26,272 nucleotides of DNA from a virus. Shown here piece after piece: positions 1,163 to 24,755 of this stretch; position 1 is the first letter of the stretch, and every line of letters starts with the position of its first letter. The DNA lies in the IMG/VR virus record IMGVR_UViG_3300045999_011563, positions 1-26,272 of that record. One strand, 5' to 3'. Below the pieces are notes generated by a model. The model did no database searches. It saw only the letters and a list, made by a program, of their open reading frames with translations, and had not been told where the DNA came from. A program made the translations under genes and the position numbers.

Positions 1163-2089
1163 ATGCAAGAATGTTATTATTCAGGAGCAAATAATGGAAG
1201 TTTATGTTATGAGTTGTACGATAAAAATCGTTTACAACCTGACATAAAAGTATTTTCTAATATTGCTGATGAAATGGTTAATTCAATGGGTCAAAAAATT
1301 GAATATTGGGTTAATTCGATGGTGTTAACTTCTGCTGATGTTTTATATGGAGAGCAACCAACTAGTGTTTTTTATGGTCCAAAAATTGTTAAAATGATAA
1401 TTAATTTAAATGAATCTAATTTATCATTAAGTAAATTTGGATTTAATGCGGATGATGATATTACTGGTTATATGTCATATTATACATTTGTTAGTGCAAT
1501 GTCTAATGATGATGTTTATACTAGGTTAAATCAAGATATTGAACCTAAATCAGGAGATGTATTTAAAATGGTTGAATATGGTCAAGATCGTAAAAATGGA
1601 AGAAGTGGTAATTTCTTTCAAATAACTCAAAGAAGAGATCAAGATATTGGGGATAATATGAATATTCTTGGAGGACATTATGGTTGGCAGATAAAGGCTA
1701 AACGTCTTGAATATAGTTGGGAACCCGGTTTACCACAAGAATCTCTTAATGTACAATCAAATGACGATTCTTTCTATGGTAAATTAGTTAGCACTATATC
1801 TGGTGAAATTTCTTCTACTGATTATTCTTATGGAGAATCTGCAGATGAAAGAAGTAGTCATTATATTATTGATATGACATTTAATAATACTTCTGTTTAT
1901 GGAACTTATAATTTACAATCCACCGAAGAAGTTGTACCTGCTAGAGCAACACATATTTTAGATGTTGTTGATCAAGAAGAATTAATTAAATCTATAACTG
2001 ATGAGAAAATAAAAGAATTAGAAGACCAAATAGAACAAGAAAGATTTATCAGAACAGGAAAAGATCTTGTGGATGGTGGTACTTTCTAA
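1163..2089 (+). CDS. Neck protein, gp14-like (head-tail connector)
   Basis: This is a 308-residue protein. T4 gp14 (256 residues) joins the head-completion complex and helps attach the tail. Gp14 relatives share a pattern of YG-D-PT, then a KFG-x(3)-D-x-(I/T) segment, a GD-(V/L)-(I/F) segment and a G-x-Y-x-(W/Y)-x-(I/L)-x-(A/C)-x-(R/L)-x-EYS segment. Here these appear as LYGEQPTSVFYG (61-72), LSKFGFNADDDITGYMSYYT (about 88-107), PKSGDVFKMVEYG and LGGHYGWQIKAKRLEYSWEP. The C-terminal 45 residues are predicted helical and acidic (DQEELIKSITDEKIKELEDQ). The match is by remembered pattern, so the family call is moderate. No Shine-Dalgarno sequence precedes the ATG; GTATATA lies 5 nt upstream, a weak variant of the late box. 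The stop overlaps the stop of the converging NHL gene by 4 bases. Confidence 0.55.
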   Translation: MQECYYSGANNGSLCYELYDKNRLQPDIKVFSNIADEMVNSMGQKIEYWVNSMVLTSADVLYGEQPTSVFYGPKIVKMIINLNESNLSLSKFGFNADDDITGYMSYYTFVSAMSNDDVYTRLNQDIEPKSGDVFKMVEYGQDRKNGRSGNFFQITQRRDQDIGDNMNILGGHYGWQIKAKRLEYSWEPGLPQESLNVQSNDDSFYGKLVSTISGEISSTDYSYGESADERSSHYIIDMTFNNTSVYGTYNLQSTEEVVPARATHILDVVDQEELIKSITDEKIKELEDQIEQERFIRTGKDLVDGGTF

Positions 2090-3630
2090 ATTGTTATTAC
2101 ATTACTAGTTACAGAACCTACAATATTAGAAATAACCACAAAATAATCACCACTATTTTGTATTTTACTAGGTATAATAAGAGAACTAGTAGATCCTGTA
2201 ATAGTCGTATTATTTTTATACCATTGATAATTAAAGGGAGGTGTTCCAGAAACATTTATTGTTAAGGTTACACTTTCATCTAATACACCTTTTCTAATAG
2301 TATAATTAGATGAATCACAAATATATAAATTATTAGAAGAATCTACTACTAATCCTCTAGGATTACGAAATGTAGAATTTGGACCTACACCATCGTCTGA
2401 ACCCGGTTCAGAAGTTTTACCTGCAATAGATGTTACTGTTCCATCAGGTGTAATTTTACGAATTTTATGTAATGAATTTTCTGAAACATATAAATTATTT
2501 AAAGAATCTTTTGCTATTCCGTATAAATTATCAAATCTAGCATTAGAACCTGTTTCATCAACATCACCCTTTTGTGTTCCTAATCCCGCAAAGGTTGTAA
2601 CTTCTCCTCCAGATGTTATTTTACGAACTGTATAATTTAAAGCGTCCGCTAAAAATAAATTATTAAATGTATCAGATACTAATCCTCCTTGAGGTGATCC
2701 AGAAAATCTAGCATTAGAACTCAAACCATCAACATATCCGTTCAATGTATTACTACTTCCTGCTAAAGTTGATACCAAACCATTTGATGTTATTTTACGT
2801 ATTGACACTCCTCCTTCATCTATAACATATAAATTATCAAATGAATCTATTGTTATCCCGCGTAAAATTTTATTTAAACTTGCTCCAAATCTTGCATCAG
2901 AACTTAAACCATCCACTTGTCCTTCAATAGCAGAAGACCCCGCAAATGTAGATACATATCCATCTGTTGAAATTTTGCGAATTGAATATTTATCTGCAAT
3001 AAATAAATTATCATTAGAATCCGATACTATTCCCATAGGAACTGAAAATCTAGCATTAGTACTCAATGCATCCACATGACCTTGCCCAGAACCAGCTATA
3101 GTAGAAACATAACCTGCTGGTGTTATTTTACGAACAGTAAAAGTATCAGTAACATATAAATTATCATTAGAATCTATTGTTATATATTTTAATGAATTAA
3201 ATCTTGCATTTAAACCAATTCCATCTACTATACCTTTTTGAGATGCAGAACCAGCAAAAGTTGAAATATATATTTCTCCATTTGGATTAAACGATGAATT
3301 AAAATTAAGTATATATGGAATATCAGCTTGCCTTAAGCTTACTATATCACTATTAATTAAATATCTTTTATTACCAGCTTTACAATAATAATCTCCAACA
3401 TCCGATAAACTAAAATTATTTATAAAAAGTGAACTTGTTGTTTGTCCTGACAAAGGAAAATTATTCCTATACCATTGGTATAATAAAGGGTTACTTCCTT
3501 CTAATTTAATATAGAATCTATAATTATCTCCCAAACTTAAAACTTCACCTACAGGTTGTTGTGTAATAATTGGAGGCACATAAGAAATTATGTGATTTAA
3601 TTTTATAAATGATCCATTTTTTATAAACAT
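2086..3630 (-). CDS. Adhesin-like protein: Ig-like domain, six-bladed NHL propeller, Ig-like domain
   Basis: This 514-residue protein has three visible parts. Residues 18-100 form an I-set-like Ig domain with core W53 and the D-x-G-x-Y-x-C signature ending at C83; the partner cysteine is missing. Residues 121-448 hold six NHL repeats, each with NARF-x(n)-G(I/L)-x(2)-DS-x-NNLYV-x-D and IRKITxxGxVST-(F/I/L)-AG. Residues 450-514 form a second Ig-like domain (NYQWYKNNTTITGSTSSLII, then SGDYFVV) with valine in place of cysteine. NHL propellers bind proteins, glycans or RNA, and Ig-like domains are common on phage tails and capsids, so a surface binding protein is the likeliest role. It lies 3 nt downstream of the repeat-shaft gene and is probably translated from the same message. 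A TATAAA element overlaps the junction. The stop is TAG. Confidence 0.75.
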   Translation of the reverse strand: MFIKNGSFIKLNHIISYVPPIITQQPVGEVLSLGDNYRFYIKLEGSNPLLYQWYRNNFPLSGQTTSSLFINNFSLSDVGDYYCKAGNKRYLINSDIVSLRQADIPYILNFNSSFNPNGEIYISTFAGSASQKGIVDGIGLNARFNSLKYITIDSNDNLYVTDTFTVRKITPAGYVSTIAGSGQGHVDALSTNARFSVPMGIVSDSNDNLFIADKYSIRKISTDGYVSTFAGSSAIEGQVDGLSSDARFGASLNKILRGITIDSFDNLYVIDEGGVSIRKITSNGLVSTLAGSSNTLNGYVDGLSSNARFSGSPQGGLVSDTFNNLFLADALNYTVRKITSGGEVTTFAGLGTQKGDVDETGSNARFDNLYGIAKDSLNNLYVSENSLHKIRKITPDGTVTSIAGKTSEPGSDDGVGPNSTFRNPRGLVVDSSNNLYICDSSNYTIRKGVLDESVTLTINVSGTPPFNYQWYKNNTTITGSTSSLIIPSKIQNSGDYFVVISNIVGSVTSNVITI

Positions 3631-3633
3631 AAT

Positions 3634-5466
3634 TTATAATACAAGCCAAGTATTTGTTCCGCCATTTGCTATTACTTGTTTATAATTTCCATTTAATATT
3701 TGTACAACAGGAGTAACACCCAATCCTCCATTATAATGTATATCTATTTTATGATTATTTGTTTCTGTATTTTTTATAATAAATGTTAATCCTGTATGAG
3801 AACTATTTACAGCAGGTAATTCTACATTTCTTGCTGTTCCATTAGGATCTATAAACAAATATGTAGGTGTATTTTCTGCTAAAGTTATATCACCAGTTAG
3901 TGTTACTGATGATACTGGAACATATAGAGATTTTACTATATGAATGTGATTAGTAGAAACATGTGTATTAAATGTTCCCGTACTAGCCACAAAATTTAAT
4001 GTTGAATTTCCAGACAAAAAGTCTCCAGAAGTAGAATTTACAGTATTATAAACACTATTCCAATTTGCACTAGTAGAAGTTAATGCATTATAAGATGAAT
4101 TCCAATTACCACTAGTAGAAGTTAATGAGGAATATGCAGAATTCCAATTACCACTAGTAGAAGTTAATGCATTATATGAAGAATCCCAGTTTGCGCTAGT
4201 AGAAATTAAACTATTATAAGCTAAATTCCAATTAGCACTAGTAGAAGTTAATGAGGAATATGAAGAGTCCCAATTACCACTAGTAGAAGTTAAACTATTA
4301 TAAGATGAATTCCAATTAGCACTAGTAGATGTCAATGCATTGTATGAAGAATTCCAATTAGCACTAGTAGAAGTTAATGCATTGTATGAAGAATTCCAAT
4401 TAGCACTAGTAGAAGTTAATGCATTGTATGATGCATTCCAGTTTGCACTAGTACTTGTTAATGCTGAATATGCAGAATTCCAATTACCACTAGTAGAAGT
4501 TAAGCTGTTATAAGAATTGACCCATGTTGAAGAGGTATTTAATGTGGTATTATAAACACTATTCCAATTAGCAGAATTAGCTGCATTTATATTATATACA
4601 GTATTCCAAAATGCACTAGTAGAAGTTAAACTATTATAAGCAGAATTCCAATTACCACTAGTAGAAGTTAAACTATTATAAGAAGCATTCCAATTACCAC
4701 TAGTGGATGTTAAACTATTATAAGCAGTATCCCATATTCCCGAAGTTGATTGTAATGTTGTAATATTTGTTCCTATAACATTATTTGATGCGGAAATAGT
4801 TCCAATTGTTGTTAATCCTGTATTTTTAATTTCAGAAACAATAGATCCTCCATTTCTAAATGATGCTATTGGATAAGAAATATTTAAATTGTCTACTAAT
4901 AATCCAACAGTTGAACCAACATTTGAAACGGACAAAGAACTAGTATTAACTATATTAGTTTCAATATAAGAGATATCACCTAAAGCTGATAAATTACCTT
5001 GAACCAATAAATTACCACCAATATTAGTATTTGATGTTACATTTAAACCAGAAAAATTAGCAGTTGACGCATATAAAATATTATTTGCAGATAAATTATT
5101 TGTTGCAATAAATATTGGAGTTTTAGCAACAACTCGTTGTCTAAAATCCATTGTCATAGAAAATGCACCATGACCAGTCAACGCTCCATCACTAATAATA
5201 GTTTCTGTTCCAACTCCTGAAATAAAATCACAATTTGTGATATTTCTTATAGTTAAATTTTCACATATAATATCACCAACAACATCTGCAGATAAGAAAT
5301 TAATACCAGTATTTGTACTTAATAAACCATTTACAACAAAATCCCCTTGAAAAGGTTCTGATGGAGATGCAATTGGATCTGATGCACTATCAGGATAACC
5401 TACTGTAGGAGAAGTATGATGATCTTTTCTGTGTAATTTATTATGGAATCTTGCATTACCTGCCAT
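3634..5466 (-). CDS. Tail-fibre or adhesin protein with 18 tandem 14-residue repeats
   Basis: This 610-residue protein starts with a His-rich segment (NARFHNKLHRKDHH, 4-17), then a beta-rich region to about 237. A shaft of about 18 tandem 14-residue units of consensus LTSTSxNWNxxYNx (238-489) follows. The last 115 residues resemble a small C-terminal fibre domain (LPAVNSSHTGLTFIIKNT, then VTPVVQILNGNYKQVI). Leu1, Ser5, Trp8 and Tyr12 are spaced 4-3-4-3, so each unit equals two heptads and a trimeric coiled-coil shaft is plausible. The protein has no enzyme motif. It is the first gene of the leftward arm from the bidirectional promoter 5472-5491 and has an exact CTAAATA box 5 nt before its ATG. 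A host-recognition fibre is inferred from architecture and neighbours. Confidence 0.75.
   Translation of the reverse strand: MAGNARFHNKLHRKDHHTSPTVGYPDSASDPIASPSEPFQGDFVVNGLLSTNTGINFLSADVVGDIICENLTIRNITNCDFISGVGTETIISDGALTGHGAFSMTMDFRQRVVAKTPIFIATNNLSANNILYASTANFSGLNVTSNTNIGGNLLVQGNLSALGDISYIETNIVNTSSLSVSNVGSTVGLLVDNLNISYPIASFRNGGSIVSEIKNTGLTTIGTISASNNVIGTNITTLQSTSGIWDTAYNSLTSTSGNWNASYNSLTSTSGNWNSAYNSLTSTSAFWNTVYNINAANSANWNSVYNTTLNTSSTWVNSYNSLTSTSGNWNSAYSALTSTSANWNASYNALTSTSANWNSSYNALTSTSANWNSSYNALTSTSANWNSSYNSLTSTSGNWDSSYSSLTSTSANWNLAYNSLISTSANWDSSYNALTSTSGNWNSAYSSLTSTSGNWNSSYNALTSTSANWNSVYNTVNSTSGDFLSGNSTLNFVASTGTFNTHVSTNHIHIVKSLYVPVSSVTLTGDITLAENTPTYLFIDPNGTARNVELPAVNSSHTGLTFIIKNTETNNHKIDIHYNGGLGVTPVVQILNGNYKQVIANGGTNTWLVL
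4000..4755 (-). repeat. Tandem 42-bp repeats encoding the 14-residue shaft units (about 18 copies)
   Basis: A 42-base unit is repeated in frame about 18 times inside the fibre gene. Several copies are almost identical at DNA level and share an ACTAGTAGAAGTTAA core on the plus strand. Three consecutive units encode the identical LTSTSANWNSSYNA, while the outer units diverge. This pattern suggests copy number changes by slippage or recombination, with the newest copies in the middle. Confidence 0.9.
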
Positions 5467-5471
5467 GAAAT

Positions 5472-5491
5472 TATTTAGTGTCTATTAAATA
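5472..5491. promoter_or_regulatory. Compact bidirectional late promoter between fibre operons
   Basis: Two late boxes point outward within 20 bases. CTAAATA on the minus strand (5478-5472) lies 5 nt before the ATG at 5466, and TTAAATA on the plus strand (5485-5491) lies 6 nt before the ATG at 5498. Six bases separate the boxes, so two polymerases could not sit here at once and the two arms probably compete. Confidence 0.7.
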
Positions 5492-5497
5492 TTTATG

Positions 5498-6217
5498 ATG
5501 GCAGACTCCACAGCTAATTTTTATTTAGATAATTATTTTAATGCAGTTTTTGATATTACTTGGTCTTTTCAATATAGTGTCACTGGATTAAATGCTTCAG
5601 GAGGATTTGCAACTTTTTTGTTTGATAGTAATATCCTTCAAGGAGGAGAAAAATATGAATCTATAGGAGTCTTACCAGAAGACATAAATAATTTAGAACA
5701 AAACGGAGGAATAGAAGGACATGCTTTAAGTATAATTTTTAAAAGCGATAATAAAATATATATTTATTCTAATTCAAATTTTGCATTATTAACTTCTTTT
5801 TCTTTAAATAGTTCTTTATCTCCTTTTATAAAAACTTATGAAGATTTTAATACTATACGTTTTAATTTAACTAACGATGCACAAATTTTAAATATATCAT
5901 TTAAAAATAAAAATATAAATAGATATGAAGATTTAATTAGTATTAATACTGGATTATTATTTTATAATGATAAATTATGTAAAATAGGGTTTTCTTATTC
6001 AACCCCTTTAACTGCAAACGGAAATAAATGTTTAATAAAATTAAAAGATATACACGTTCAAGGTAAAATTATTAACACAGAAATAGATTACAGGGGAAAA
6101 CCATTTTATCCCATTCAAAATACAAATTATATATTGGAATCTCCATCTAATAATAATATAAATATAGGAAACCCGGTTCCTGAATCTATCGGCTCTTTAA
6201 TATATCTTAAAAGTTAA
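5498..6217 (+). CDS. Possible lectin-fold (concanavalin-like) structural protein
   Basis: This is a 239-residue protein with strongly alternating beta-type sequence. The segment ITWSFQYSVTGLNASGGFAT, followed by FLFDSN, and the later HALSIIFKSDNKIYIYSNSN resemble strands of phage proteins with an L-type lectin or concanavalin-like jelly roll. No catalytic residues are evident. A glycan-binding role in the fibre complex is inferred from fold and location. Two ATGs lie in tandem at 5495 and 5498. I chose the second because the TTAAATA box is then 6 nt away, matching other genes here; with T4 geometry transcription would start at about 5497, after the first ATG. Nine bases separate its stop from the next gene. 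Confidence 0.6.
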   Translation: MADSTANFYLDNYFNAVFDITWSFQYSVTGLNASGGFATFLFDSNILQGGEKYESIGVLPEDINNLEQNGGIEGHALSIIFKSDNKIYIYSNSNFALLTSFSLNSSLSPFIKTYEDFNTIRFNLTNDAQILNISFKNKNINRYEDLISINTGLLFYNDKLCKIGFSYSTPLTANGNKCLIKLKDIHVQGKIINTEIDYRGKPFYPIQNTNYILESPSNNNINIGNPVPESIGSLIYLKS

Positions 6218-6220
6218 ATA
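6214..6220 (+). promoter_or_regulatory. Late promoter box TTAAATA, 6 nt before ATG
   Basis: TTAAATA overlaps the TAA stop of the lectin-like gene (6215-6217) and is followed by six bases and the ATG at 6227. The fibre gene could therefore be transcribed independently as well as by read-through. Confidence 0.6.
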
Positions 6221-6226
6221 ATAAAT

Positions 6227-7981
6227 ATGGAAGATTCGTTTATTAATAAACTAAAAGAATCATTTACAATAACAAATAATGATTTTACTGTATTTGATGT
6301 TTTAGACAATTCATCGGGAATTTCTAATTTTTATACTAAAAAAGTTTCTTATAAAACTCTAACAAATAAAATTAGTTCTGATCTTATACCCATTTTAAAT
6401 GATAAAATTAATCAAATACAATCTACTTTAAATAATTCGACAATAGAAATAGAAAATAAATTAGATAAAAATGGTACTAATTATTCAAAAAATGAAAAAA
6501 TAATCGGCCCATTAGTAATAGATTCGCAATTGTCTGCAAATGGATTATCTTTTTTTAGACAAAATATAGATTTAACATATAATAAAATTATAAATTTAAA
6601 TAATCCAGAATCAGATTATGATGCATCTAATAGAAAATATGTAAATGAAAAATTTGATTCTATAGTAATACCAGATTTGTCTAATTACATAATGAAATCT
6701 GGAGATTTAATTTTCGGAAATTTAATTTTAACACAAACACCTTTATTATCTAATCATATTATTCATAAAAAATATGTAGATGATTTATCTCCAATAAATA
6801 AATATCTTCCTTTAAGTGGAGGATCAATGGTTGGAAATTTATCTGTTTTAACTCCAACTAATGATTTTCATGCAGTAACTAAAAAATATGCAGACGATTT
6901 ATCTCCTTTCGGAAGATTTTTACCATTATCTGGTGGTACATTAACTAATAACATTTCTGTAAATGATCCTACAAATTTACAACATATTACAAATAAAAAA
7001 TATGTAGATAATAAACTATCATTATATCTTCCTTTAAATGGAGGTACAATGTTAGGAAATTTAAATGTTAATACACCTACAGAACCATCACATGCAGCAT
7101 CTAAATCATATATAGATAACTTTCCATTTTCTAATACATATCTACCTTTAAGCGGTGGAAAAATGAATGGTTATTTAAGTGTAAATGATCCAACTAATGA
7201 TTTTCATGCAGTAACTAAAAAATATGTAGATAATTTATCTCCCGGTGGAAAATTCGTATCTTTATCTGGAGATACAATGACAGGATATCTTTCTGTCTTA
7301 GAACCAACACAATTAAATCATCCTGCTACTAAAAAATATGTAGATGATAAAATTCCTGTGGGTTCGTTTTTACCATTAAGTGGTGGTTCTATGACTGGTT
7401 ATTTAAGTGTATTACCTCCCACTTTAGATAATCATGCAGTAACAAAATCATATGTTGATAATAAAGGTTCGTTTGGATCTTATGTTCCTCTTGCCGGAGG
7501 AACAATGATAGGTTATTTAAATGTTTTAACTCCAACTTTATCAAATCATGCAGTAACAAAAGAATATGTTGATTCTAAATCTCCTAGTAATTCTTATGTT
7601 CCTTTAAGTGGTGGTATAATGACAGGATTATTATCTTTAAAAGAAATAAATTATCCGATTTTAAGTTATAATAATACAATAGATGATACTATTATTAATA
7701 TGACAGGTAATGTTATATTTTTAACATTAAATAATAATGTTTCCCATTTTAATTATGGTCTACCCCCAAATAATTATACAAGACAAATAATTATTTTTAT
7801 ACAACAAAAAGGAACATCTACCTTTTATAATATAAAAAATTGGAAAATAGGAAATAAAGATATAATATGGTATAATAGTGACATTCCAATTATAACTCAA
7901 CAAACAAATAAAATAGATATATTTAAATTTATTTACACAAACAATAATTGGTATGGTTCTATAATAGGTCAAAATTTCTAA
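6227..7981 (+). CDS. Tail fibre protein with PLSGG...TKKYVD repeats
   Basis: This 584-residue protein has an N-terminal region (1-130, with a helical stretch around 50-80) probably used for attachment or trimerisation. It is followed by eight full repeats and one partial repeat of about 38 residues (about 154-475) with the consensus (F/Y)LPLSGGxMxGxLxVxxPT, then xxHAVTKKYVDxxxP. This repeat is a well-known element of phage tail fibres and forms an extended trimeric shaft. The C-terminal 110 residues are beta-rich and Asn/Ile/Tyr-rich, ending NNNWYGSIIGQNF, and probably form the tip. The gene lies in the middle of the rightward adhesin operon with its own late box. The next gene is a paralog with the same N- and C-terminal domains. 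Confidence 0.88.
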   Translation: MEDSFINKLKESFTITNNDFTVFDVLDNSSGISNFYTKKVSYKTLTNKISSDLIPILNDKINQIQSTLNNSTIEIENKLDKNGTNYSKNEKIIGPLVIDSQLSANGLSFFRQNIDLTYNKIINLNNPESDYDASNRKYVNEKFDSIVIPDLSNYIMKSGDLIFGNLILTQTPLLSNHIIHKKYVDDLSPINKYLPLSGGSMVGNLSVLTPTNDFHAVTKKYADDLSPFGRFLPLSGGTLTNNISVNDPTNLQHITNKKYVDNKLSLYLPLNGGTMLGNLNVNTPTEPSHAASKSYIDNFPFSNTYLPLSGGKMNGYLSVNDPTNDFHAVTKKYVDNLSPGGKFVSLSGDTMTGYLSVLEPTQLNHPATKKYVDDKIPVGSFLPLSGGSMTGYLSVLPPTLDNHAVTKSYVDNKGSFGSYVPLAGGTMIGYLNVLTPTLSNHAVTKEYVDSKSPSNSYVPLSGGIMTGLLSLKEINYPILSYNNTIDDTIINMTGNVIFLTLNNNVSHFNYGLPPNNYTRQIIIFIQQKGTSTFYNIKNWKIGNKDIIWYNSDIPIITQQTNKIDIFKFIYTNNNWYGSIIGQNF

Positions 7982-7985
7982 TAAT

Positions 7986-10799
7986 ATGGAAATCTTTATT
8001 AAAAATTTAAACGAATCTTCATCGATTGAAAATGATGATTATTTTTTATTTGATAAAATACAAAATAACGGTTCATTTTATACAAATAAAATTTCTTTCG
8101 ATACACTAAAAACAAAAATAAATTATGATATAATTAATATTTTTAATTCTAGTATATTGTATGATATAAATACAAGCACAGAAATATTAGCAAATAAAAT
8201 AAGAAATAAATTAGATAAAAATGGTTTGATTTATTCTGATTATAATAGAATGACAGGACCAATTTTATTAAACAATTCTTTAACAGCTAATAATTATTCT
8301 TTTTTTAAAAATAATGTTAATTTATTATATAATAAAATTGTTAATTTATCTTCTATAAACATTTCCGATAATGTTAAACAAGCATTAAGTTCTTACGAAA
8401 CCTTTACTTTTGCCAATTTAAATGGAGATTCTGGTTCTGCAGATGGTTCTAGAATAAATGCTAAATTTTATTTCCCTAGAGGAATAACCATAGATGAATT
8501 TGATACTTTATATATTACAGATACTTATAATCATACAATTCGAAAAATATTATCATCAGGAGAAGTATCTACTATTGCAGGATCAGCTACTTTTTTTGGT
8601 TTAACAAATGGAAATGGTAGTGAAGCTAGATTTTGTTATCCACATGGTATAACAATAGATTCTTCTAAAAATTTATATGTTTGCGATACATTTAATCATA
8701 TTATTCGTAAAATAACACCATCTGGGGAAGTAACAAATTTTACTGGATCTGTATTTAATTATCCTTATGGGATAACAATAGATTCCTTTAATAATTTATA
8801 TGTTTCTGATACATTTAATCATGTAATTCGTAAAATAACACCATCTGGAGAAATAACAATTTTTGCCGGATCATTAGGTAACATTGGTTCTACAAATGGG
8901 AATGGAACAAATTCAAAATTTCATTATCCTTATGGTATAACAATAGATTCTTCTAATAATTTATATGTTTGTGATACTGGTAATCAATTTGTAAAAAAAA
9001 TTACTCCATCTAAAGATGTTACAAAATATGCTGAAATAGAAAGTCAAGAAATAATTTGCGATACAAATAATAATTTATTTGTTTCTAATACATTCAATCA
9101 GACAATACATAAAATAAACACAGAAGGAAAATCTTCTTTAATAGCAGGAGTAAGTGACACTATAAATTTTTCTGATGGTTTAGGAGTAAATGTTAAATTT
9201 AATTATCCTTATGGAATAACAATAAATTCATTAAATGAAATATTTGTATGTGATTCACAAAATAATTCAATAAGAAAATTAACATATACAGGAATTGAAC
9301 CTATTCCTGTATTTAATCCCGAAGATTATATATTAGTTAATAAAAAACATGTAGATGACAAAGTAGATAGTGTTCCAAAAATAAATGTTAATTTATTAGT
9401 AAAAAAAACAGGAGATACATTATTAGGACATTTAAGTACAAATATAAATATATTTGATAATAATTTAGAAGCAGTTACAAAATATTATACTGATATTAAT
9501 TTTCCTTTAGAAAAATTTTTACCTTTAAGTGGAGGATCAATGATTGGTAACACTTTCGTAAATATTCCATTATCAAATCCCCATGCTGTTACAAAAAAAT
9601 ATGTAGATGATAATACACCTTTTGGTAGATTTGTTCCTTTATCTGGAAATGTTTCAACAGAAAACAATATTAATTTACCAGATCCAATAAATGAAAATCA
9701 TGCTACTAATAAAAAATATGTAGATACCAATCTTATTTCATATCTATCTTTAAATGGTGGAACTATAAAAGAAAATTTAATTATTTCCGCAACTCCAACA
9801 TCTCCAAATAATGTAATTACAAAATCTTATATAGATAATATTTTAAATAATATATCTTTAAATGACTTTGTTGTATTAAGTGGATCTACAATGATTGGAA
9901 ATTTATCAGTTTTATCTCCAATATCAGATTTACATATTTCTTCAAAAAAATATGCAGATGATACCATTTTTGGTAATTACTTATATTTAAGTGGAGGAAA
10001 ATTAAATGGAAATTTAATAGTACCTAGTTTAAATAAAACTTCAAATAATTATATTGCAGATTCAAAATATGTATTAGATATATTTGATAATTTTTCTGAA
10101 TTTGCTAAATTAAATGGAAGTTATATAAATGGTGAATTAATTATATCGAATACGCCTTCATTATCAAATCATATTAGTACTAAAAAATATGCTGATGATT
10201 TTTTAGATTCTATTAAAAATTTTGCCTCTAATGATTATTTAAAAACAGAAGGAGGAACTTTAACTGGTTATTTAAATACCTTAACTCCTGTAAATGCAAA
10301 TAATATAGTAAATAAAAACTATGTAGATAGTAATTTTGATAACAAATATTTATACATAACAGGCGGATCTATTGAAGATATCACTCTTAATAATAATGGG
10401 ATTATAGAGAAAAATACAATAATAAATTTAAATGAAAATTATATAAATTTAGAAAATACAAATTTTTACACAATTAATTTATCTTCTAATTGTTCAGGCT
10501 TTAATATAGATATTGATAATACTAAATTTTATGATATTAACTTATTAATTAATTCTTTAGAAAATAATTCAATTAATTACTTTAATAGTATAGTTTGGAA
10601 TATAAATGGTATTCCAGTTTTATGGGAAAATAACAAAGTTCCAAATAATTTAATATATAAAACACATATTTTTAATTTATTTTATGCAAATAATATGTGG
10701 TTTGGTTCTATATCGAAAGATTTTATCGAAGAAAATGTACTAGCACAAGAATTTGACGATTTCGTAATGACAGAAAATATGGATTTCCTTCTTCTTTAA
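7986..10799 (+). CDS. Large tail fibre with inserted six-bladed NHL propeller
   Basis: This 937-residue protein is a paralog of the preceding fibre. Residues 1-125 match its N-terminus in order (NDDYFLFDKI; KLDKNGLIYSDYNRMTGPIL). A six-bladed NHL propeller follows (about 140-436; blades marked YPYGITIDSSNNLYVCDTxN, then IRKITPSGE), with blade 5 degenerate. Fibre repeats of the LSGGxMxGxL...KKYVDD type (about 437-800), more diverged than in the neighbour, come next, then a related C-terminal domain. The last 20 residues are an extra acidic tail ending MDFLLL. Propeller insertion between stalk and shaft suggests an added receptor-binding domain. Four bases separate it from the upstream stop. 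It has no exact late box, so it is probably expressed from the promoters upstream. Confidence 0.85.
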   Translation: MEIFIKNLNESSSIENDDYFLFDKIQNNGSFYTNKISFDTLKTKINYDIINIFNSSILYDINTSTEILANKIRNKLDKNGLIYSDYNRMTGPILLNNSLTANNYSFFKNNVNLLYNKIVNLSSINISDNVKQALSSYETFTFANLNGDSGSADGSRINAKFYFPRGITIDEFDTLYITDTYNHTIRKILSSGEVSTIAGSATFFGLTNGNGSEARFCYPHGITIDSSKNLYVCDTFNHIIRKITPSGEVTNFTGSVFNYPYGITIDSFNNLYVSDTFNHVIRKITPSGEITIFAGSLGNIGSTNGNGTNSKFHYPYGITIDSSNNLYVCDTGNQFVKKITPSKDVTKYAEIESQEIICDTNNNLFVSNTFNQTIHKINTEGKSSLIAGVSDTINFSDGLGVNVKFNYPYGITINSLNEIFVCDSQNNSIRKLTYTGIEPIPVFNPEDYILVNKKHVDDKVDSVPKINVNLLVKKTGDTLLGHLSTNINIFDNNLEAVTKYYTDINFPLEKFLPLSGGSMIGNTFVNIPLSNPHAVTKKYVDDNTPFGRFVPLSGNVSTENNINLPDPINENHATNKKYVDTNLISYLSLNGGTIKENLIISATPTSPNNVITKSYIDNILNNISLNDFVVLSGSTMIGNLSVLSPISDLHISSKKYADDTIFGNYLYLSGGKLNGNLIVPSLNKTSNNYIADSKYVLDIFDNFSEFAKLNGSYINGELIISNTPSLSNHISTKKYADDFLDSIKNFASNDYLKTEGGTLTGYLNTLTPVNANNIVNKNYVDSNFDNKYLYITGGSIEDITLNNNGIIEKNTIINLNENYINLENTNFYTINLSSNCSGFNIDIDNTKFYDINLLINSLENNSINYFNSIVWNINGIPVLWENNKVPNNLIYKTHIFNLFYANNMWFGSISKDFIEENVLAQEFDDFVMTENMDFLLL

Positions 10800-10834: not shown

Positions 10835-11077
10835 TTAATCCAAATATTCTTCCACTTTAAAATCGTGATTCATACTTGGAAATCTTTGTTTTATATACTT
10901 TTGAATGGCTAATGGTTTAATCCATGAATCTGTTCTTTCTAGATTAATTTTAGATTCTTTAGCTTTTCCATTGATATGTTCTAATGCTTCCATTAGACAT
11001 AGCCATCTTGAATAGCTATCAACAGTCATTACATGTTTTTTATTTGTTTTTGTTGTAATTGAAACATTATCTATCAT
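10835..11077 (-). CDS. Small unknown protein
   Basis: This 80-residue basic protein has no recognisable motif. It contains a helical stretch with aromatic residues (DSYSRWLCLMEALEHINGKA, 19-38) and a second one near the end (IKPLAIQKYIKQRFPSMNHD). Its ATG overlaps the TGA stop of the upstream gene as ATGA, the usual sign of translational coupling, so it should be made together with the 131-residue protein. It is the last gene of the leftward block and converges on the fibre operon with a 35-base gap. Confidence 0.6.
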   Translation of the reverse strand: MIDNVSITTKTNKKHVMTVDSYSRWLCLMEALEHINGKAKESKINLERTDSWIKPLAIQKYIKQRFPSMNHDFKVEEYLD

Positions 11078-11469
11078 AAAAAATTTTTAGTTAAAAAACC
11101 TAGAATTAATGTATTAATTTCATCTGAAGAAGTTTCTATCCCATTAATCATTAAACAATCTAAGCCTAAATTAATAGTATCAAATATTTTTCTACATGTC
11201 AAATTTTTTACATTATCATCCTTATATTTTGTAGAGTAAAAATCTTTCAAAATCTGAATAATATCTTTTAAATTAGAATTTCCATTATCAGCAACAGATC
11301 TGCTTAACATAGCTCGATCATATACAGGTAATAAATCTTTATTTTTAGTCAAAAGAAATATTCTCATATCTTCTTTTATAGATTTCATATCAATAAAAGG
11401 AGACGAAACATGTGTTATACTAGAAGGAGATTCTGATACGTTTTTTAATTCTTCTGATTTAAATTCCAT
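11074..11469 (-). CDS. Unknown protein, predicted largely helical
   Basis: This 131-residue protein matches no family I know. The first 30 residues are polar and Ser-rich (LKNVSESPSSITHVSSPF), and the remainder is predicted helical (KSIKEDMRIFLLTKNKDLLP; NLKDIIQILKDFYSTKYKDD; hydrophobic C-terminus LILGFLTKNFL). It lies 6 nt after the membrane protein gene and overlaps the next gene by 4 bases, so the three probably share one transcript. No Shine-Dalgarno sequence or late box precedes its ATG. Confidence 0.6.
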   Translation of the reverse strand: MEFKSEELKNVSESPSSITHVSSPFIDMKSIKEDMRIFLLTKNKDLLPVYDRAMLSRSVADNGNSNLKDIIQILKDFYSTKYKDDNVKNLTCRKIFDTINLGLDCLMINGIETSSDEINTLILGFLTKNFL

Positions 11470-17743: not shown

Positions 17744-18433
17744 TCAATTTTTGTATTCTTCTAAAAATTTTTGATTGCTATCAAGCCACATTTTATCATG
17801 TATACTTAATAATCCCGGTGAACTATGAATAACGTGAATTGGATATACACCTAATTTTAATCCTTTGCGATTAGCATCTATACAACTAGAAATATCATAA
17901 TGATGAAAATTATAATTTTCATTAAATTTCCAATCTGTTTTTTTAATTGTTTCTAAATTTAGTGCCATAAATAAACCATCCATAATAGCAACTCTAGATG
18001 GTGTTGGACCAAATGGTGTTGTCATAGTTTGATTAGGATTTCCTGCAGGATGTGCTACTTCTCCTCTTTGTTGAGATCTTTCTGTCATAATATGCCACAA
18101 AGCTGGATTAGTTAATTTTGGGTTTAATCCTCCAGCTAATCCAATAATATCATATCCCAATTTAGTATTAGCTGCTTTTAATTTTTCATATAATTTAAGA
18201 TCATCTATATACACATCATCGTGTACACAAACTAAAAATTCCGCTTCTGAATTTTGATATTGTTTTATTTTTTTATTATAAACAGTAGGCATTCCTTCTG
18301 AATTTTCCCAAACAATATCTAAAAGATAATTAGGTGTATTTAAACCATCAATATAAGATCTATATAAAGGCAAAGAAGTCTTTTCGATTTCATATTTTCT
18401 TGTACAAGAAACAATAATTACTTTTGGTTTCAT
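17744..18433 (-). CDS. Glycosyltransferase-like protein (GT-A fold, GT2-like)
   Basis: This 229-residue protein starts with a Rossmann-like strand (KPKVIIVSCTRKYE) and has EAEFLVCVHDDVYIDD (63-78), where HDD fits the metal- and nucleotide-sugar-binding DxD position. Further on, AIMDGLFMALN (149-159, D152) and NFHHYDISSCIDANRKGLKL (176-195) match the acceptor-side (H-x-x-D) pattern of this superfamily, and the end is HVIHSSPGLLSIHDKM. It probably transfers a sugar to phage DNA, a virion protein or host surface glycan; the substrate cannot be read from sequence. It is shorter than most cellular enzymes but the core seems complete. The start has an imperfect AT-rich box (ATAAAAT) 6 nt upstream. 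It diverges from the late gene at 18480. Confidence 0.75.
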   Translation of the reverse strand: MKPKVIIVSCTRKYEIEKTSLPLYRSYIDGLNTPNYLLDIVWENSEGMPTVYNKKIKQYQNSEAEFLVCVHDDVYIDDLKLYEKLKAANTKLGYDIIGLAGGLNPKLTNPALWHIMTERSQQRGEVAHPAGNPNQTMTTPFGPTPSRVAIMDGLFMALNLETIKKTDWKFNENYNFHHYDISSCIDANRKGLKLGVYPIHVIHSSPGLLSIHDKMWLDSNQKFLEEYKN

Positions 18434-23552: not shown

Positions 23553-24755
23553 TCAAGGATTGTAACGCTTCAAATTCACTCGTTTCGGATCACCATATGG
23601 AGTAGTAAATAATTCTTCGTAGCAAGCTAAATTTTGTGGAAGTTCTAAAAATCGATTTTCTGCGATTTTCCTACGAATAGGAGCTTTTCGTTTGTAATCC
23701 CATCCAGCTTTCAATTCTTTTGCAATACAATCCATCATTTCTTCTCCTGTTTTAAACTTAATATCAGCATCTTTATATGTACAAAGATCTTGACAAGCAA
23801 CAGGTAAACCATAAGCACATGCTTCAATAAATTTCAAATCACTCTTAGCCTTATTAAAGGCATTATCTTGTAAAGGCGCAACCATCATCTGCACACCTAA
23901 ATCATGAATCTTCTGAGGATAATCATAAAGTTTTTGCCAAGGATGAAATTCAATTTCTCTACTTTGAATATATGGTTGTAAACCTATTGGAAATGCACCA
24001 ATAAAAACCCATTGGTATTTCTTTCTAGAATCAACAATAGCTTTAATTACATGCTCGAAATCATCTTTCTGACCTGTTCTATTTTCAACATCAAAATGAG
24101 CACCACTCCCAGCATACAAGATACGAGGTTTTTTCTTATGTTTTTCATATAATTGTGTAATACGATTAAAATCGTAATAATTACCTATCCAAAATTTAGC
24201 AGGAAAATTAGGAATGACTGTAATTTCTTGTTTACCTGTTCTCATTTTATACAAATCACGCATAAAATCACAAGTAACACTTACTTCATCACACATGTTA
24301 ATAATTTCTACCACATTATTTCGAATCTCATCAGAAACGAAAGCCGTTTTAAATTTATTATAATCAGGAATATCTTCTCTAAAAACAACATCATCTACTT
24401 CATAAATAATCTTAAATCCAACTTGCTTTTGAACTTCTTTCAAAAATTTAACAAACTCTTTTTGAGCAGTTAATGCTTGTCGTTGTAAACGAACAGTTTT
24501 CACATTAATATAATAACGTGGATCTAAAACCATTACATTTGTATCTGTTACCAACATTTTACTTTGGTAATTCAACAAATGACTAACCCAACCTAAACGA
24601 TAAAGACCACACCCACTTACATCAGCTCCGTATTGGATAACTCTAGGTAATCCAACTTCTGCTGGTTTTTCTGGTGGTCTTTCAGAAGGTTTAGCAACAT
24701 TACTAACAGGATCAACCTTAGAAAAAGGAACTGGTGGTTTAAACGTAGAAATCAT
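23553..24755 (-). CDS. Glycosyltransferase, GT-B fold (GT4-like)
   Basis: This 400-residue protein starts with a Pro-rich N-terminal extension (about 5-37), followed by a GT-B start with VIQYGADVSGCGLYRLGW (39-56). FKIIYEVDDVVF (114-125) is a segment typical of phage and bacterial GT4-like enzymes. VSVTCDFMRDLY and ITVIPNF mark the interdomain region; RILYAGSGAHFD (211-222) begins the C-terminal Rossmann domain. KSDLKFIEACAYGLPVA (304-320) is the donor-sugar signature with E311. The acceptor is unknown. An ATAAATA box lies 7 nt before the ATG, which would favour late expression and a virion or fibre protein as target rather than replicating DNA, but this is inference. The gene lies between polymerase and gp46, with 31-base gaps on both sides. 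Confidence 0.85.
   Translation of the reverse strand: MISTFKPPVPFSKVDPVSNVAKPSERPPEKPAEVGLPRVIQYGADVSGCGLYRLGWVSHLLNYQSKMLVTDTNVMVLDPRYYINVKTVRLQRQALTAQKEFVKFLKEVQKQVGFKIIYEVDDVVFREDIPDYNKFKTAFVSDEIRNNVVEIINMCDEVSVTCDFMRDLYKMRTGKQEITVIPNFPAKFWIGNYYDFNRITQLYEKHKKKPRILYAGSGAHFDVENRTGQKDDFEHVIKAIVDSRKKYQWVFIGAFPIGLQPYIQSREIEFHPWQKLYDYPQKIHDLGVQMMVAPLQDNAFNKAKSDLKFIEACAYGLPVACQDLCTYKDADIKFKTGEEMMDCIAKELKAGWDYKRKAPIRRKIAENRFLELPQNLACYEELFTTPYGDPKRVNLKRYNP

Follow-up and report, generated by a model that had tools for sequence, protein, structure and literature searches.

NHL propellers as probable exchangeable receptor-binding modules in a putative surface-fibre cluster of an uncultivated T4-like myovirus

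The stretch of DNA analysed here, to which we refer as the window, is the 26-kb virus record IMGVR_UViG_3300045999_011563 of IMG/VR (26,272 nucleotides), whose open reading frames (ORFs) were called mechanically. Between a neck gene and two small conserved genes, it carries a group of putative adhesins, and in two of these, a protein made of Ig-like domains (2086-3630) and the last of three fibres (fibre C, 7986-10799), a six-bladed NHL propeller is inserted in frame. Considering also the equivalent loci of related contigs (kin, designated by L-numbers), we think it probable, although far from assured, that such propellers are exchangeable, receptor-binding modules in a late surface-fibre (adhesin) cluster of a T4-like myovirus.

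A T4-type DNA polymerase, UvsX, a gp32-like protein, a primase and an SbcC/gp46-like protein are all encoded in the window. As the polymerase is only about 30% identical to those of cultivated relatives, and as the proteins at 1163-2089, 3634-5466 and 5495-6217 have no match among 50,697 phage records, the window is, judging from its genes, a fragment of an uncultivated lineage of T4-like myoviruses. A scan of genome contigs with the neck protein (1163-2089), seeking the host, retrieved no relative.

NHL propellers in an Ig-like protein and in a duplicated fibre

The domain structure proposed in the first-pass annotation is confirmed. Its three ORFs (514, 584 and 937 amino acids, aa) sit at 2086-3630, 6227-7981 and 7986-10799, and the six-bladed NHL propellers that it had placed between the Ig domains of the first (minus strand) and between the stalk and the shaft of the last (plus strand) are found there by Pfam, by sequence matches in PDB and by AlphaFold2 alike. 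With a Pfam cut-off of 20 bits, NHL is matched with E=5.9e-14 (51.7 bits) in the Ig protein and with E=3.7e-29 (99.7 bits) in fibre C. A blade hidden Markov model (HMM) counts six blades in each protein, a seventh, weak match in the Ig protein being the closing strand, and sequence searches of PDB retrieve teneurin-like, NHLRC2 and TRIM71 NHL domains, with E-values down to 4e-24 and 5e-26.

In the AlphaFold2 models, predicted as single chains with alignments of kin, both proteins contain a closed ring of six four-stranded blades with a circularising N-terminal strand. This ring spans residues 121-449 of the Ig protein, where the predicted local distance difference test (pLDDT) is mostly above 90, and residues 137-434 of fibre C, where it is about 95. 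The top structural matches found by Foldseek are solved NHL domains (E to 3.7e-22), and such domains match the models with Z of 36-39 and 1.6-2.3 Å in VIA-align. On the strength of these models, both domains are complete six-bladed NHL propellers, and a chance resemblance is excluded.

Besides the propeller, the Ig protein matches Pfam Ig_3 in two stretches (E=3.9e-19) and the Hoc-like profile phrog_4069 (E=2.2e-13). In the alignment with its L007 and L008 homologues, the propeller takes the place of the start (first strand) of the second Ig domain, a part of the AlphaFold2 model that is poorly supported (confidence about 34-66). Fibre C is modelled as a stalk of hairpin and helix (residues 19-76, with the helix at 38-76), followed by the propeller and then the shaft. 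Because fibre B (6227-7981) aligns with fibre C on either side of the propeller, with identities of 44% in the stalk (about 124 aa) and of 40% in the shaft and tip (493 aa), the two fibres are built on one scaffold, and fibre B is that scaffold minus the propeller, as the first-pass annotation had supposed. The shafts of both fibres resemble that of phage hyaluronidases; the shaft of fibre B is of the tail fibre/hyaluronidase type by PHROG and gives weak PDB matches to these enzymes. Phage hyaluronidases are trimeric, and the stalk of fibre C, with its long helix, is probably trimeric as well.

In a propeller tree with long branches, the two window propellers are not joined, and a single clade is not rejected (p-AU 0.323, approximately unbiased test). 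The propellers of two different genes of one of the kin contigs, IMGVR_UViG_3300010158_000084, group together (98/89), also on long branches, and this clustering suggests that a propeller was copied within that genome.

A conserved locus with variable content

Since no close homologue was retrieved from IMG/VR when the entire fibre C protein was the query, the kin were reached through neighbouring genes and alignments: about 30 related contigs were obtained from IMG/VR scans with the neck, Ig and 5495-6217 proteins. They are metagenomic fragments, some of them near-identical (L018/L020, L026/L028), and their joins are those of the assemblies. In these contigs, two small genes and the neck gene are followed on the reverse strand by at least one Ig-type gene and fibre A, then on the forward strand by a homologue of the protein at 5495-6217 (hereafter p5495), by fibre B and by one further gene (slot 3, occupied in the window by fibre C), and finally by small genes and the primase. 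The border genes, from the head-closure protein to the primase, are constant, and the surface genes in between vary greatly. Large terminase, tail sheath and tail tube lie on the far side of the neck gene. The neck protein itself is 69-71% identical to those of L007 and L008, the former of which matches phrog_679 'head closure Hc2' (E=1.9e-8), and fibre A is 52% identical over 183 aa to L007 4500-6863. More distant kin, without Ig gene and fibre B, have only fibre A and the p5495-type protein.

The first-pass annotation had described the locus as a set of exchangeable modules and had suggested a search for propeller-free and propeller-bearing fibres in related phages. Four pairs of proteins with and without an NHL propeller can be recognised. 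The Ig-NHL-Ig protein of the window corresponds to Ig-Ig proteins in L007, L008 and L013, and fibre C to fibre B and to the propeller-free tandem fibres of L025. The propeller-bearing members of the other two pairs come from a single contig (L030 and L143 being the same one): one loop of its p5495-type protein accommodates a six-bladed NHL propeller, and the sequences on either side can still be aligned, while in its Big_9 protein of slot 3 an NHL propeller occupies a linker that is a short join in L021 and L099. At the exact site of this last propeller, the homologue in L007 (787-2145) carries a run of about 25 glycines between two domains.

Propellers are also present in the kin outside these pairs. 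Stand-alone NHL propellers occur in L022, L023 and L046, long NHL chains in L026/L028, and NHL domains in other settings in L090 and L155, and propellers of other families occupy the same region, namely RCC1 (L007, L015, L016 and L024) and FG-GAP (L018, L020 and L051). The number of Ig domains varies too, with one in L021 and L025, three in L014, four in L022 and six in L023, and in L015 and L016 four Ig domains are followed by an RCC1 propeller. With these propellers and the four pairs, the description of the locus as a set of exchangeable modules is well supported. The chain of L026 (9626-14929) and L028 (10750-16053) belongs to a protein of at least 1767 aa that ends at the contig edge and adjoins the neck gene, with about 20 NHL blade matches over several propellers and an RCC1-like part. 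A DNA-transaction role has been proposed for the RCC1-type protein of phage phAPEC6 (PMC7247149); fusion to Ig chains makes such a role seem unlikely for the RCC1-type proteins found here.

Two comparisons between close kin illustrate how this content changes. The flanks of L014 and L016 are mostly 89-97% identical, whereas their slot-3 genes are unrelated and their Ig genes are set apart by an RCC1 propeller and a single Ig domain. In L023 and L046, gp14, Ig, fibre A, p5495, fibre B and primase share 83-87% aa identity, in comparison with 53% for the NHL protein. The first 30 residues and the end of the latter are conserved, and its identity at fourfold sites (0.45, 42 sites) resembles that of its neighbours (0.44-0.74); hence, by sequence, this is an ordinary orthologue with faster protein change. 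According to the blade HMM, six-blade rings are retained in the window, L022, L023, L030 and L046 despite the divergence.

The variable bodies are attached to recurrent ends. The tag that starts the Ig protein (Table 1), or a near variant of it, also starts the Ig-slot ORFs of kin with 1 to 6 Ig domains, and is a possible docking peptide. Slot-3 proteins have different bodies (NHL, Big_9, He_PIG or Gp38-like) and mostly start with the tag MPIGNALAVIRS or a near variant, which might likewise serve for docking; fibre C of the window does not have this tag, and its N-terminus is like that of fibre B. The slot-3 protein of L018 (9117-10046), with the tag MPIGNALAVIIS, matches Pfam GP38 (E=3.8e-8). 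As it directly follows fibre B, slot 3 is a likely site of tip adhesins. No GP38 match was obtained in the window at 7986-10799, and among the kin this family was met in L018 only.

Possible functions of the propellers

If the propellers are receptor-binding modules, constant attachment ends (N-terminal tags, stalks and shafts) would hold exchangeable outer modules, of which the NHL propeller, in frame in an Ig-chain protein and in a duplicated fibre, would be one. Three propellers round a trimeric stalk would then most likely offer binding faces to a host surface molecule, probably a glycan, as in the platform of phage phi11, and the gain, loss, swap or rapid change of a propeller would alter what the phage grips. 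Some considerations weigh against this proposal. As the frame proteins tested have no counterpart in a cultivated phage, a location of the adhesins in the virion is deduced from gene order. In other systems, NHL domains belong to enzymes or bind RNA or proteins, so the fold alone is no proof of glycan binding. Furthermore, the comparisons between kin rest on metagenomic contig fragments, and the faster change of the NHL protein between L023 and L046, a single pair, could reflect relaxed constraint.

Other functions can be envisaged for the same proteins. They might decorate the neck or the capsid, in the manner of whiskers or Hoc-like proteins, and let the phage cling loosely to surfaces such as those of particles or mucus, the host not being decided by them. 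The head-closure gene is next to the cluster, and the whisker gene of T4 (wac) likewise lies near the neck genes. The Ig chains also resemble Hoc-like families by PHROG, and gut phages attach to surfaces by means of Ig adhesins (PMC13370021). By contrast, the Gp38-type adhesin that follows fibre B in L018, together with the architecture of the fibres, indicates tail-fibre tips, and we consider a decoration unlikely; it would, in any case, still be a binding module, with a different location and target. It is quite unlikely, in our opinion, that the propellers are lactonase-, lyase- or hydrolase-like enzymes that cut a surface polymer in the style of tailspike depolymerases: although several of them weakly match SGL, Vgb_lyase and Arylesterase models, and phage endosialidases are trimeric propeller enzymes (PMC4901313), the top matches are NHL and teneurin-type, Vgb_lyase is not above the cut-off in the window proteins, and swapping between NHL, RCC1 and FG-GAP suits binding more than a single chemistry. 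If the propellers were neutral spacers, which make surface proteins longer and are free to drift, their variable presence and the strong divergence between L023 and L046 would be accounted for, but six-blade rings persist despite that divergence and unrelated propeller families share the region, which makes this explanation very improbable.

Returning to receptor binding, a broader version may be put forward more tentatively, with slightly less than even confidence. The propeller would be a general plug-in, of which at least three families (NHL, RCC1 and FG-GAP) stand in or beside almost any scaffold of the locus and are copied from one scaffold to another within a genome, and the whole would form a previously undescribed modular system of receptor recognition.

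Relation to known phage proteins

Phage fibres exchange tips, but there are few records of a fold adaptable to ligands that is repeatedly inserted mid-chain in unrelated surface proteins of phages. The first-pass annotation considered that NHL propellers are not a standard phage receptor-binding fold, a statement to be qualified in view of what is already on record. Propellers are present in the receptor-binding proteins phi11 Gp45, PRD1 P2 and phiKZ gp131 and in endosialidases (PMC4901313), and Nitratiruptor phages NrS-2 and NrS-3 have a tail fibre (NRS2_61/NRS3_61) with a six-repeat NHL domain (PMC9723563). Additionally, BFVD lists NHL proteins of uncultivated myoviruses, and 66 loci with propeller relatives, several of them adjoining tail genes, came out of a degenerate scan of IMG/VR; one of the loci, L135, lies in a contig of 227 kb and encodes a tail fibre with NHL. 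Because of the NrS-2 fibre, the BFVD entries and these loci, the NHL fold in phage tails must be taken as already known. What appears to be new, as far as the open-licence literature goes, is that it has been inserted repeatedly, into four scaffolds, and that such varied propeller families are present at one locus.

Gp45 of the Staphylococcus phage phi11 is a trimeric receptor-binding protein in which a helical stem at the N-terminus is followed by the propeller and then by a C-terminal part (PMC4901313), and the single chain of fibre C follows the same order. By contrast, the propeller of Gp45 is five-bladed, phi11 is a siphovirus, NHL is unmentioned in that report, and the trimeric state of fibre C is presumed. 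As Gp45 is not among the matches listed in the sequence (PDB) or structure comparisons, no homology to it is claimed. The NHL domain of the Nitratiruptor fibre varies between close phages, three of the six repeats being absent in NrS-3; however, these are temperate siphoviruses with a single scaffold, and the parts of the report consulted describe no series with and without the insertion (PMC9723563). In T-even phages, the adhesin gene for Gp38 (PF05268) comes right after the fibre, and the Gp38-like protein of L018 is in the slot of fibre C, although the latter is a fibre paralogue with a propeller and not a glycine-rich Gp38. Domains are also exchanged in a modular way in fibritin (wac) of T4-like phages, where C-terminal domains are swapped and, in the sections consulted, propellers are not named (PMC3797505). 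Finally, the Hoc-like or 'tentaclin' Ig-chain adhesins combine a variable number of Ig-like domains with a binding module, which is a C-type lectin there and an NHL or RCC1 propeller here (PMC10743442, PMC13370021).

NHL proteins were also met in other phages. L123-L140, an unrelated phage group (e.g., L131 4983-7280), have an N-terminal NHL propeller, followed in L123 by an MBG domain; the L131 gene adjoins one matching L-shaped tail fibre assembly, and this is a second phage lineage with NHL. The cultivated Flavobacterium phage MaF61, from a lake (L009, 2821-15474), has leucine-rich-repeat and NHL-like propeller proteins in one cluster.

If the propellers do bind receptors, they would constitute a portable recognition part whose effect could be tested through the natural pairs with and without it, and would help to annotate the host-recognition genes of viruses only available from metagenomes.

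Other features of the region

Table 1. Coordinates of the adhesin region and its borders in the window
Feature	Position	Strand	Evidence or remarks
Head-closure (T4 gp14 / Hc2-type) neck protein	1163..2089	+	Left border of adhesin region, conserved
Ig - NHL propeller - Ig protein, 514 aa	2086..3630	-	Pfam Ig_3, I-set, NHL, TEN_NHL; AlphaFold2
Second Ig-like domain	2089..2280	-	Ig residues 451-509; alignment with L007/L008
Six-bladed NHL propeller of Ig protein, residues 121-450	2281..3270	-	Pfam, blade HMM, AlphaFold2, Foldseek
First Ig-like domain	3331..3576	-	Ig_3 residues 19-87; strands modelled with high confidence
N-terminal tag M[FY]IKNGSxxKxxxIISYxPP of Ig-slot proteins	3571..3630	-	Common to kin ORFs
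Fibre A: N-terminus MAGNARFHxKxHRK... and repeat shaft	3634..5466	-	Present in nearly all kin
28-bp divergent gap, back-to-back late-promoter-like TAAATA-type boxes	5467..5494	.	Conserved in kin
p5495, conserved protein of 240 aa	5495..6217	+	16-member alignment; NHL-bearing homologue in L030/L143
Fibre B, propeller-free: stalk, ~40-aa repeat shaft, C-terminal tip domain	6227..7981	+	Fibre C paralogue
Fibre C: fibre-B paralogue with NHL propeller	7986..10799	+	Pfam, PDB sequences, AlphaFold2
Fibre C stalk: hairpin and long helix	7986..8360	+	44% to fibre B residues 5-124
Six-bladed NHL propeller of fibre C, residues 137-440	8394..9305	+	Pfam, blade HMM, AlphaFold2, VIA-align
Fibre C repeat shaft and C-terminal domain	9318..10799	+	40% over 493 aa to fibre B residues 116-579
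Two conserved small genes	10835..11469	-	Right border of adhesin region; kin homologues at matching place

The arrangement of the boxes in the divergent gap, ATTATTTA...TAAATAWTT, is identical in 16 of 16 loci compared by eye, and this gap is a candidate for a very compact bidirectional promoter, from which expression would be late. Late-promoter-like TAAATA boxes are found just 5′ of p5495, fibre A and fibre B. No such box was found upstream of fibre C, which is therefore probably co-transcribed with fibre B.

The p5495-type protein is retained even by distant kin that do not have fibre B. It gave no Pfam match and no significant match in PHROG or among PDB sequences; a lectin-like or beta-sandwich nature, an impression from motifs seen by eye, is not claimed, as the profile search of PDB sequences had no significant match. 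In one of the distant kin (L035, 7590-11303), this protein is enlarged to 1237 aa by Ig-like domains. Elsewhere in the window, the ORFs at 17744-18433 and 23553-24755, placed among the replication genes, are putative glycosyltransferases by their reading.

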